Both the position numbers and the translations under genes were made by a program. From Pempheris klunzingeri (Eukaryota; Chordata; Actinopteri; Acropomatiformes; Pempheridae), in NCBI RefSeq assembly GCF_042242105.1, contig NC_092014.1, positions 4,837,874 to 4,901,873 on the forward strand: 64,000 nucleotides of DNA, written 5' to 3'. Under the pieces are notes generated by a model. It saw only the letters and a program-made list of their open reading frames with translations, was not told the origin of the DNA and ran no database searches. This document shows positions 46,036 to 50,201 of this stretch, one piece after another; the stretch's first letter is position 1; every line of letters starts with the position of its first letter.

Positions 46036-49000
46036 TGGTGATCCTGTAACTTCAGTTTGTATAATGGTTTGGTTAATGTCCATCTATGACATTCCCATAT
46101 GTGTCTGCCATGTTGTACATTCCTCGATAAAGTGGCGCAAGTTTAACATGGCTGAGTTCTTTTGGTACTTAATGTAAATTGTGAAATTCAATAAAAACAT
46201 CTGTGAAAGAAAGATATTTAGTGTATAAGTTACAGTTACATCAGATTCAGCAGAACCAGTATGCTGATTCTTAATGGCCAGCTGGCTTTAGCAGAATTAA
46301 ATGGGTCACATGTTAATACATGAAAGAGGAAGAAAGAAATCAGTCTTACAAAACATTTCAACACAGATAAATGCACTGATAAAATTAGAAAGTAGCTTCT
46401 GAGAACAATAAGAAACTGTTCTCTTTCTGCACCAGGCAGTTAATTAGGCATAACAGGCAACTAAATAACACCTTGTGCATCTGGGCGTTGTGCATACACA
46501 CACCAATGCACACACAAACACAGTGACCAACAGCAATCTACACCAGGGATATAATTAGGACTAAGAGGCTACAGTATGAAATGACGACATATGTGAGAGT
46601 GTACACACACACGCACACACACAAATCCACACATGAGCTATATTTAACAACTCCTATCTCTCCTCAACAGTATTCTTGACAGCGTGGGGACAAATCGTGG
46701 CAGAAAATAGCCTAATTGTTTTAGTGTGAGGAGAAAAAATTGCTTCCTTTCTGCAGTGAACAATGAGCTTCGCTAAAAACTGCCCTAACAGCCTCACATG
46801 CATTTCAGATTTCTGTCATCGCTTGTAAAAGTGCTGGCTCAATGGTGCCAGGCTTTCAGATAAAAGTTGGAGAATATTAAGCAAATTTTATTAACTGTTT
46901 GTCTCGTTCTGTCTCCTTGTCTCTCACCCTTCCAATCTCCTCCCTCCCTGGTTGTTTTCTGTAGAAGAGGAGGAAGATGAGCACGATATTCCCACAAACC
47001 ACACCCATGGCCGATACACTAGAAGTCTTGGTAGGTTTCAGCATCTATTTCTGTCCCTTCCTGTCTGCATTTTGTTTCTTTTTCTTTCCATCTGTTTTTA
47101 CCACCAGTCTCTCAACACTTCGTATGTGATTCCTGCCAAGAATCCCCCTCTTATTCTGTTCTTTCTCCCTCTCCTCCCCTTACCAGTGGAGGCACAGCCA
47201 GCTCAGCAGGCGGCGTGTAAAGTTCGCACAGAGGTGATGGAGGTGACTAGGTCGATGCTGGACCGCCGCAATGCCAACTTCCTGTTATGGCCACCCTGTG
47301 TGGAGGTGCAGCGATGTTCGGGCTGCTGCAACACCAGGCTGCTGCAGTGTGTCCCCACCGTCACCTCCAGTAGATACCTGCAGGTACGAGCACATGCAGC
47401 TGCCATAAAACCATAAATTCATGATTTAAAGTAGGAACAATACCTTTGTGGAAATGTGTCACTATGCGAATGAGTGCTTTTGGTGTTCCAAATACATTTG
47501 GTGGCTTAATCTGAAGATGTGTGTCTTGTTTATCATCTAGACAATAATTGAATATTACAACATACTGGATTTCATGGGAATTGAATCATAATGACCGACC
47601 ATATTATATTACCTTTTTAAATAGTTCTGCTGTGCAAATCAATTGTGCACTGTGATCTTGTGTGCATCCATATGGTGATTAAGAATTTCCTAGATTTCAT
47701 GATATTGCTTCAAGTGATGATTTACGCACTTTGAGATTACAATTTAAAACGCAGAACCTCATTCTTTCCTCAGAAAATTATAGAAAACTTTGGCATGAAC
47801 CCATCAAATTCAGTGGAATTTGATTTACACTTAATGTGTCAGATTTTGTATGCTGATGTTTTGTTGTTTCTCCCTCTTTTCCAGGTGATAAAGATCCAGT
47901 ACATAAACAGGAAAGCCCATTATGACAAAGCCATCATCTCAGTGGAGGACCACGTCACTTGCAGGTGCCAACCTCCCTCATCCTCCTCATCTTCCTCATC
48001 TTCCTCTTCATCCTCCTCTGTTCCCAACCCTCGCTCCTCCATTCAGAGCAACCCCAACCCACCTTCACCACAGCAGCCTCCCCCGTCCTCCCACCTTCCC
48101 CTGCCCCCTCCCCGACCTGCTCACCCAGCTCCACCAAAGACTCACGCTTCCAAGGCCGACCTGCATCGCCACGACGACCTGAAGCACAACCAGCAGCACT
48201 ACCACCCCGAAGAGCGCGAGCCGGTGCCGAGGCAGTGGCAGCAGGGCAGTTACACCCAGCTGGTGCACTGGACACAGCCCAGGGTGCACCAGGCACCCAC
48301 ACACGTTGGTGGGGCTCACACGCCGGTAAGCGGCTGGCCATCTGAAGCGAGGGCGGAGCATAGTGTCATGGGAAGCGCACAGCAGGTCGGGCACGGGAGC
48401 GGGTATGATGGCAGCAGGGAGGAAAGTGGCGTGCATGTACCAAACAGCGGCGGGGAAATGCATCATCCAGATCACATGCAGAGACAACAACAGTTGTTAC
48501 AGCATCAGCAAAGACAGCAGCTTCAGCAGCAATATCAGTATCGCCATCAGCCGCATTACACACAGCAGTACAACCATGGAGGGGCGGAGGACTCAGAGCT
48601 GAGGACACAATATCGACTCAATGCTCCCCAATCAGACAGCGCCTCCTCACCTGGCAGCCCGACCCAACTGCCCAAATTAGAACAAAACCTCACCCCTCCT
48701 TTGACCACCAAACAGAAAGACTCAGTGACCAGCCAAAAAAATACAGAGGTCACAAATCACAAACAGACTGAGACTGAAACAACCAGTCAAAAAGGAGGGA
48801 AAGAGAAGGAGGAAAGTGGGTCAGCCAGTAGCGGGGACACGGCCAGGGCAGAGCTGGCCGGCGAGAGGAAGGAGAAGGACTCAAAAGTGACCAGTGGGGA
48901 CGGTCATTTAACGGAGGAGGAGAGGAGACAGAAAACTCTGGCGACGGTACAGAGGGAACTGGATCGAGAGTCTCGTCCTCATCCGCATCATCCACAGCAA

Positions 49001-50201
49001 AGACCAAAACCGACCACATTTAAAACAGGTACTGTTTGATTGTAGAGAATGTGTGTTGTGAGTGTGAATGAGAGTTGGTTTTAAAGGTCAACAGTTGCTT
49101 TTTTTTTGCATTTAGAAGCAGCAGATATAACTCCTTAGCACGGGTCAGTAGCATCTTTAGACCCTCCCTGACTCATAAACCACAGTTTTTAAGCTCCACA
49201 TCCCAAGGTGGCAACACAGGCTTTCTGTCAGAACTATGAAGTTTTAAGCCCAATCTGAGATTACAGTGATGACATAACTATGATGTCAGGGTTATTTTCC
49301 CAGACTTGAGCCATCAGAGCATTATACAACTGTTTTCACATTAGATAGAACACATGACTAGTAGACTGCTCTATATGTGTAAAAGTGATTGTGGCCCTTT
49401 GGAATAAAAGTACTTTATGAAATAAATCTTGGTCACTATCAATGTAAACAGAGTGTCACTCCAAGTGAAAGGAGGAAAAGTTTGTGCATGTATTACAATC
49501 GCTGCCTTTAACAAATCTAATGCAAGACAGAGGGAGAGGTAACTACCACTAATTTTAGCTTGTAAATTTTGCTTTTAACGTACGAGAGAATCAGTGGGAG
49601 AGTTTCCCAGGCAGGATGCAGCCCCCTGTACATGTATGACTAAACAACATGGCCACATGTGTCCTGCTATTCTTCCTCAACCCCCTGAGAGCTCTGTAGT
49701 CAGCGAGTTGGACTTCCCACGGCTTCGTATTTGACTTAAACCTGCAGGCGGTCACAGGCTTTGTTACGCAGACGTCAAGGTTATCGTCTGTCCTTCAGAG
49801 TGCAGTTAGAGCCACCACAGGAGCTACACACCCTGTGTTTATTCCTAACTGGTGCTGCACACTGCTATTAAAGCCAAGATGACACTATTGTTCATGTGTG
49901 GTTACTTGCTTCATATGTTATTATTCGTTTTCTTTTAGCTGTTTGAACAAATTACCGATGCTGTAATTTTTCTAGGGAGTCACCACTTCTGATATTTCAA
50001 TGTACTTTTCATTCCTGTTTGATATTGACTTTTGCATTAACTGTGTCCTCTACCTCCTCTTGGCTCCCTTTAGCCCTCTCCACAGTGGCTCCCATGTCCC
50101 CCGCAGCCCGCCAGGCCCCGTTCCGACCAGCCTCACCTCGCCGCAGAAGGAAACACCGCAAACGCATCAGCAAAGCAGCCATCAGAGCCATGATCATGTA
50201 G
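36904..50201 (+). CDS. platelet-derived growth factor subunit B (six coding exons)
   Basis: Join 36904-36975, 44827-44929, 46965-47030, 47187-47383, 47885-49028, 50074-50201: 569 codons, intron phases 0,1,1,0,1. This is a secreted dimeric ligand of PDGF receptors, acting on pericytes and vascular smooth muscle. Layout: signal peptide 1-22 (cleavage near SSA/E); propeptide with '[11 protein letters not shown]', an acidic run at 59-66 and an N-glycosylation site N70-H-T; likely processing at RYTR78/S79; PDGF/VEGF domain 91-174 with all eight knot cysteines (91, 118, 124, 127, 128, 135, 172, 174), '[20 protein letters not shown]' being nearly identical to mammalian PDGF-B; then a disordered segment 175-527; then the basic retention motif RRRRKHRKR 550-558. 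Human PDGF-B has 241 residues, so the 175-527 insert is the oddity. The paralogue (pdgfba or pdgfbb) cannot be assigned here. Confidence 0.95.
36976..44826 (+). other. pdgfb intron 1 (7.85 kb)
   Basis: GT...CACAG intron, phase 0. Contents: (GA)n at 37883-37900, (CA)n at 39347-39382, several short GT tracts (41634-41649, 41769-41786, 41935-41953, 42300-42328) and a GA tract near 44056-44070. No exon or RNA gene was supported inside. Enhancers are expected in such an intron but none can be pinned down by eye. Confidence 0.8.
44827..44929 (+). CDS. pdgfb exon 2 (propeptide)
   Basis: Begins [11 protein letters not shown], aligning with human GDPIPEELYEM, and contains '[13 protein letters not shown]' (human 'RSFDDLQRLLHGD'). 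Ends in phase 1 before GTACTA. Confidence 0.95.
44940..45001 (+). repeat. (CA)31 next to the exon 2 donor
   Basis: An uninterrupted CA tract beginning 10 nt inside the intron. CA-rich RNA is the binding site of hnRNP L, which can enhance or silence nearby exons. Confidence 0.95.
45780..45995 (+). repeat. dispersed teleost repeat B, second copy
   Basis: 'cgatccactactttggttca', 'gcaggtggattgaagtttgg'-like words, 'tcccctgacttttccttcag' and 'gccaccatgaggttgacatt' belong to the same family as the copy split at 6292/7328. It runs directly into a CA microsatellite. Confidence 0.6.
46965..47030 (+). CDS. pdgfb exon 3 (acidic propeptide end)
   Basis: Encodes EEEEDEHD, the N-glycosylation site NHT, and GRYTRSL. 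The basic cleavage site is weaker than human RGRRSL: only R75 and R78 remain, an R-x-x-R pattern that still fits furin-type convertases. A 156-bp intron follows. Confidence 0.93.
47187..47383 (+). CDS. pdgfb exon 4 (cystine-knot core)
   Basis: Carries six of the eight conserved cysteines (residues 91, 118, 124, 127, 128, 135) and the PDGF signature CxxxxxCSGCC-type motif, here [16 protein letters not shown]. Donor CAG/GTACGA, phase 0. Confidence 0.97.
47885..49028 (+). CDS. pdgfb exon 5 with giant low-complexity extension
   Basis: The first 28 codons complete the growth factor domain ([20 protein letters not shown], then EDHVTCRC, with the last two cysteines). The other roughly 353 codons stay open in frame. 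They encode a poly-Ser run (14 Ser written with mixed TCN codons), a Pro-rich part, a His/Gln-rich middle ([20 protein letters not shown]) and a Lys/Glu/Ser/Thr-rich end, ending in AAAACAG/GTACTG. The human exon 5 equivalent is far shorter. The exon keeps phase 1 at its end, matching exon 6. Antisense and shifted frames open over the same bases are by-products of few stop triplets. Confidence 0.92.
49029..50073 (+). other. pdgfb intron 5
   Basis: 1,045 bp, GT...TTTAG, phase 1. No other feature seen. Confidence 0.9.
50074..50201 (+). CDS. pdgfb exon 6 (basic retention tail)
   Basis: Encodes [18 protein letters not shown] to the stop TAG at 50199. The cluster of basic residues corresponds to the heparan-sulphate/matrix retention motif of PDGF-B. 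A donor CTGCAG/GTGAGG follows the stop by 8 nt, as in mammals, where the last exon is untranslated. Confidence 0.93.

Follow-up and report, generated by a model that had tools for sequence, protein, structure and literature searches.

The pdgfb gene of the window

The 64,000-nucleotide stretch of Pempheris klunzingeri DNA considered here (NC_092014.1, positions 4,837,874 to 4,901,873 of the forward strand; "the window") carries on its + strand a pdgfb gene, which spans positions 36904 to at least 50201 and whose fifth exon contains a long open insert between the growth factor domain and the basic tail. Exon 1 (36904..36975, +) opens with a start codon and a signal peptide, recognized by eye, and reads open to a GAG/GTAAGA donor. 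The propeptide is encoded by exon 2 (44827..44929, +), which was placed by frame and splice signals and has a low donor score of -2.02, and by exon 3 (46965..47030, +), which contains an NHT sequon and an R-Y-T-R processing-like site. The donor and acceptor scores used throughout come from approximate tables that were not fitted, and their scale is loose. Exon 3 may begin at either of two positions and end at either of two, which gives four in-frame models; depending on this choice, the exon model yields a single open protein of 566-569 amino acids. Its N-terminal propeptide ends in ...HGRYTR, followed by S or M depending on the model, with the signal peptide and the R-X-X-R site judged by eye.

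Exon 4 (47187..47383, +) supplies cysteines 1-6 of the cystine knot, as evidenced by the Pfam PDGF match, a PDB match and a search of the fish's own genome, and the first part of exon 5 (47885..47971, +), assigned by frame, Pfam and PDB match, completes the knot. All eight Cys residues of the PDGF domain are present in the translation of these two exons. The domain (PF00341) is found with an E value of 7.4e-24 and is the sole Pfam match in the protein at E values up to 1. Among solved proteins, human PDGF-B is the closest match, with 116.5 bits vs 88.5 for PDGF-A, these being bit scores against solved chains rather than a tree. As a whole, exon 5 covers 47885-49028 (1144 nt), beginning in phase 0 and ending in phase 1, and its second part (47972..49028, +) consists of a Cys-free insert of 352 codons that is scored as disordered, together with a single base of a split codon. 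The insert frame joins exon 6 in phase at 50074, reading ALSTVAP..., and the coding part of exon 6 (50074..50201, +) contributes the basic retention tail, predicted to bind heparan sulphate, and the stop codon. The original prediction of a PDGF domain and a conserved basic tail is borne out, the domain by the Pfam and PDB matches and the tail by its near-identity in a second pdgfb of the same genome. By these features, the gene is a functional-looking pdgfb of the teleost type.

Mammalian PDGFB (241 amino acids in mouse) shares the signal peptide, the propeptide, the eight-cysteine domain and the basic exon 6 tail. We take mammalian exon 5 to run from phase 0 to phase 1 as well, the human exon 5/6 junction presumably being in phase 1, as in the window pdgfb. 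The linker between knot and tail of mammalian PDGF-B is a few tens of residues long, whereas it measures 352 residues in the window gene and 318 in the second copy. We regard its length as a feature that may vary and not as one that defines PDGF-B.

The exon 5 insert

After ...DHVTCRCQ, 352 codons (47972-49027) are read without a stop and the phase is kept into exon 6, which confirms the insert of about 350 residues that had been proposed to lie between knot and tail. The single discrepancy is the earlier count of 353, in which the Gln of CRCQ was included. The order of composition also stands as described: poly-Ser, Pro-rich, Gln/His-rich, and then Lys/Glu/Ser/Thr-rich. Among first-order Markov sequences modelled on the insert itself, 3/3000 are open in the given frame and 4/5000 in any of the three frames, and the remaining two + frames across the insert contain 8 and 7 stops. 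The longest open run in 30 overlapping 1056-nt windows, drawn from the two longest introns of the window pdgfb, is 109 codons. With regard to content, no Cys is observed where 5.6 are expected (P 0.004), Ile and Phe together number 2 vs 13 expected (P 0.0007), and the net charge is +1. A frame that is free of Cys and poor in Ile and Phe suits a secreted disordered segment, and seldom arises from random sequence of that composition. FoldIndex values are -0.22 for this insert and -0.23 for that of the second copy, compared with +0.10 and +0.16 for the knots.

A single-sequence structure model of exon 5, made with no alignment, has a mean predicted local distance difference test score (pLDDT) of 51 and is mostly poor; because the knot part is scored poorly too, the low values say nothing about disorder. 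Two helices are modelled (exon 5 numbering), one at residues 195-220 in the Gln-rich part, with a pLDDT of ~90 over 201-220, and the other at residues 344-362, with a pLDDT of ~75. No Pfam family matched the insert above the cut-off, and the best candidate, V_ATPase_I (E 0.96), was discarded. Three weak matches to PDB sequences (E 0.012-0.09), which for the most part cover the Glu/Lys-rich region, were discarded as reflecting composition. For the metal or pH sensing suggested in the original prediction, the basis would be the His content by itself, which amounts to 27/352 residues here and 25/318 in the second copy.

Near its start, the insert carries a microsatellite-like tract of 14 TCN serine codons (47978..48019, +), which differ at third positions only (TCC/TCA/TCT) and are matched at other places in the genome. 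This codon mixture had been taken as an argument for constraint on the protein. The own-genome searches covered the 646 Mb genome (G000), in which the window lies on contig C3. With the 1057-base insert as a DNA query and simple repeats skipped, 30 other matches are listed, some of them side by side, and all fall within bases 1-70 of the query. At the seven poly-Ser-type loci that were printed, the triplets are mixed similarly, on either strand. Because the tract is of the microsatellite type and like mixtures occur at other loci, it is poor proof of constraint, and the argument from mixed codons is weak. We also considered and rejected an origin from a mobile element or repeat, as among the matches listed only poly-Ser-type DNA recurs elsewhere in the genome. 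Beyond bases 1-70, the insert has no DNA match elsewhere among those listed; the insert of the second copy was likewise missed by this search, and therefore only close DNA copies are excluded, not diverged relatives. The start of the insert is rich in pyrimidines (78% C+T over 47972-48137), which, speculatively, would fit an exonised intron end.

A second pdgfb and the wider family

The own-genome PDGF search gave 10 matches, of which six were examined, belonging to two pdgfb and two pdgfa-like genes, and four weaker ones were left out. The second pdgfb lies on contig C17 and resembles the window gene in exon 4, over which the identity is 78%. Its exon 1 is signal-peptide-like (MSSWVQLLLALLAACLRFGVAE) and its exon 2 reads GDPLPAALVELVRNSP; exon 3 was not located in its region. 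Exon 5a ends 34 residues past CRCQ in phase 0, a short intron comes next, and exon 5b (L009:6992-7844, 853 nt) leads, in phase 1, to exon 6 with the basic tail. The extra phase-0 intron (L009:6621-6991) lies within the insert and is absent from the window pdgfb; since the window exon 5 has the mammalian phases, it was, after the duplication, either gained in the second copy or lost in the window copy. Exon 5b is open in 0/3000 Markov sequences. The distance from CRCQ to exon 6 is 318 residues, and the insert has no Cys and a net charge of 0. A related sequence with stops in this region had been named as the finding that should overturn the prediction; in the one relative examined, this second copy, the region is open, and the prediction is not refuted. 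As the sister copy, on another chromosome, carries a similar insert, that of the window gene seems to be ancient and genuine, not a chance event at one locus. The claim of protein-level constraint stands in part: the insert very probably encodes protein and has been maintained, on the strength of the comparable insert of the second pdgfb and not on that of the poly-Ser tract.

The alignments and shuffle tests identify one block common to both genes, at 48149..48193 (+; SKDELHQWDELKHNQ in the second pdgfb), which occurs collinearly in the two inserts as SKxxLHxxDxLKHNQ. When 20-residue segments of the two inserts are compared, the best match pairs a segment of the window insert with SKDELHQWDELKHNQRAHLE of the second copy, and their distances from the knot differ by 21 residues. 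If collinearity is required to within 30 residues, the score of the shared block is reached by 0/5000 full shuffles and 1/5000 block shuffles, and global alignments of the two inserts place it in register. Closer to the tail, the 19-residue segment of the second modelled helix (48914..48970, +) resembles EEERQKEKEMD, which lies about equally far from the insert end in the second pdgfb; in the two copies, the EEER(R)QK block precedes the end of the insert by 38 and 32 residues. Over 17 codons of the tail, the proportions of nonsynonymous (pN) and synonymous (pS) differences are 0.07 and 0.59, respectively, and in the knot block synonymous changes are saturated. We read the two inserts as having a common ancestor, from which they would have drifted fast around a few fixed points. 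As far as these sequences tell, the insert is not peculiar to one gene: both pdgfb copies carry it.

Two further features of the second copy deserve mention. Its insert contains four N-glycosylation sequons, where the window insert has none (one pattern searched), and exon 5b includes, at L009 ~7640-7790, a long Glu/Arg/Lys-rich stretch that is probably helical (EEEKLEQERKELLLLHKRLDQEKEILRQQQMKREEEERQKEKE).

The two remaining genes (C3, C17; L018, L019), which we take to be pdgfa-like from their features and from their rank in the own-genome search, differ from pdgfb in that exon 5 is short and lacks the insert, a donor-like site being seen by eye <20 residues past the knot. Because their exon 5 is short, the insert looks specific to pdgfb. 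It is probably older than the split of the two pdgfb copies. Contigs C3 and C17 each hold one pdgfb and one pdgfa-like gene, and an origin in whole-genome duplication therefore fits. The retention of pdgf duplicates in fishes is reported in PMC10328876. Our comparison of inserts leaves out further family matches among the 15 found in the family search, the 14 control genomes of which gave no PDGF match. No relatives were found in the prokaryote and viral collections, as expected for an animal gene. In the open-access literature, with subscription journals and database records outside its scope, our search turned up no account of a fish PDGF-B that carries a long insert.

A proposed anchored stalk and alternative readings

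We lean towards the view that exon 5 encodes a long, probably disordered segment in both pdgfb copies, which acts as a neutral flexible stalk. The net-neutral insert would be translated and would hold the basic heparan-sulphate-binding tail some ten nm or more (our own estimate) from the receptor-binding dimer, and the ligand would be anchored in the matrix yet able to reach receptors. The stalk would also expose a long protease-sensitive stretch, the cutting of which would free a soluble dimer. A spacer of this kind would require length, neutrality and the absence of cysteine, so that identity may drift fast over most of it; SKxxLHxxDxLKHNQ, and perhaps the helix near the tail, would be maintained and may serve for binding or processing. 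It is established that heparan sulphate retains PDGF-B through the C-terminal motif, and this motif is believed to shape the pericyte-guiding gradient (PMC8308020 and PMC12769094, both cited from excerpts). In zebrafish, two pdgfb copies act jointly in mural-cell recruitment (PMC8537713, excerpt).

A broader proposal can be made only tentatively, and we hold it with some doubt: the PDGF-B of teleosts, perhaps of ray-finned fishes, would be a three-part molecule composed of a knot, a long Cys-free neutral stalk bearing the LKHNQ block, and a matrix-binding tail. This arrangement would have been kept in both copies since the genome duplication and would set the reach and release of the matrix-anchored ligand. 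Matrix retention of PDGF-B is needed in mammals for proper pericyte recruitment. If the tail sits on a stalk of ~350 residues in both fish copies, results on gradients in fish may reflect a different reach and release, and the gradient for mural-cell recruitment would be built differently from that of mammals. The insert would also offer a natural length variant for asking whether the length of a receptor-to-matrix linker matters.

Several observations weigh against a conserved, fully flexible stalk. If the two helices are real, some of the insert would be structured. Without the collinearity band, the score of the shared block is met by 4/2000 and 5/2000 shuffles, and its pN of 0.20 and pS of 0.47 come from 15 codons, a sample too small to establish constraint. 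Outside this block, the inserts align barely above composition (14/1000 full and 30/1000 block shuffles), and even the top-scoring local alignment runs out of register. The insert could also be reduced in length by splicing within it. Finally, mammalian PDGF-B functions with no such insert, in a mouse protein of 241 amino acids (available text of PMC8308020).

The original prediction envisaged a mature ligand of more than twice the usual size, but the insert could instead be removed as a C-terminal propeptide or be partly spliced out. The main rival holds that insert and tail are cut off near the knot during secretion, leaving a ligand of the usual size, with an insert that acts on the precursor alone, in its folding, secretion or retention. 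The C-terminal extensions of VEGF-C and VEGF-D undergo processing, and dibasic pairs occur in both inserts, two in the window copy and more in the second. Long C-terminal extensions are familiar in the PDGF/VEGF family (VEGF-C/D; PMC10328876, excerpt), and mammalian PDGF-B itself occurs both as a form that has the retention motif and as one that lacks it, which in platelets arises by proteolysis inside the cell (PMC8308020, excerpt). Between knot and tail, however, the only furin-type RXXR site of the window copy is RESR-P beside the tail, and the second copy has none outside the tail. Other proteases might act, and we regard removal near the knot as unlikely yet worth serious attention. With RXXR confined to RESR-P, it is simplest to suppose that the tail would remain joined to the knot until another protease cuts.

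Splicing within exon 5 bears on two further readings. The strongest donor-like site of the exon, CCG/GTAAGC at 48326, scores 5.15, compared with 0.02 for the used donor at 49029, and in-frame acceptor-like sites at 48716 and 48998 would delimit a possible internal intron (exitron) of 130 codons (390 nt; 48326..48715, +) or of 224 codons (672 nt; 48326..48997, +), giving long and short isoforms. These acceptor-like sites score 1.41 and 2.17, below all five acceptors of the window pdgfb (5.14-11.74), although acceptors in the second-copy model score as low as -0.18. Such partial removal, which we consider rather unlikely, is compatible with a stalk, as the shared block and 128-222 insert codons would persist. 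Joining 48325 to exon 6 shifts the frame and loses the tail, as does skipping of exon 5b in the second copy, and therefore tail-less soluble forms are possible from both genes by alternative splicing. The other reading is an annotation or assembly artefact, in which the true exon 5 ends soon past the knot and the rest is intron. Mammalian exon 5 is indeed short, and a CAG/GTGCCA site lies at 47965. This site, however, has phase 2, so that its use would put exon 6 out of frame, and the five best phase-1 donor-like sites of exon 5 are all at 48309 or beyond. The 1056 open nt, set against the intron windows with their longest run of 109 codons, and the like arrangement in the second copy make an artefact highly improbable.

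It may also be that slippage and loose selection enlarged exon 5 and that the insert is merely tolerated. The microsatellite-like poly-Ser tract, with its 30 listed matches, and the failure of most of the insert to align between copies favor such neutral growth, but in both copies ~320-350 codons stay open, balanced in charge and free of Cys, and the two have a block in common, and among the matches listed only the first 70 bases of the query recur elsewhere. We judge this explanation improbable.

The proposed stalk can be set beside other members of the family. VEGF-A, to which we liken pdgfb, has a receptor-binding domain, a spacer and a heparin-binding part; its spacers, unlike the pdgfb insert, are short and arise from alternative splicing. 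In VEGF-C and VEGF-D, a PDGF/VEGF domain is likewise followed by a long C-terminal extension, which differs in its repetitive cysteine pattern, BR3P (PMC10328876, excerpt), from the pdgfb inserts with their 0 Cys. The long and short forms of PDGF-A likewise consist of a knot with an optional basic exon 6 retention tail (PMC3339542, excerpt).

Elsewhere in the window, a cluster of tRNA-Cys(GCA) genes occupies 25195-27586, with four called by ARAGORN on both strands and a fifth matched by Rfam at 27526-27586. Upstream of pdgfb, an exon-like open stretch at ~35380-35580 (GPDNLYPIPVTAPNFPFKSTHGRSGLLAPNKEVVNPAFKRRGTGPWHTFEDHSQVSDMTISTSSK), noted by eye, is perhaps part of a neighbouring gene.

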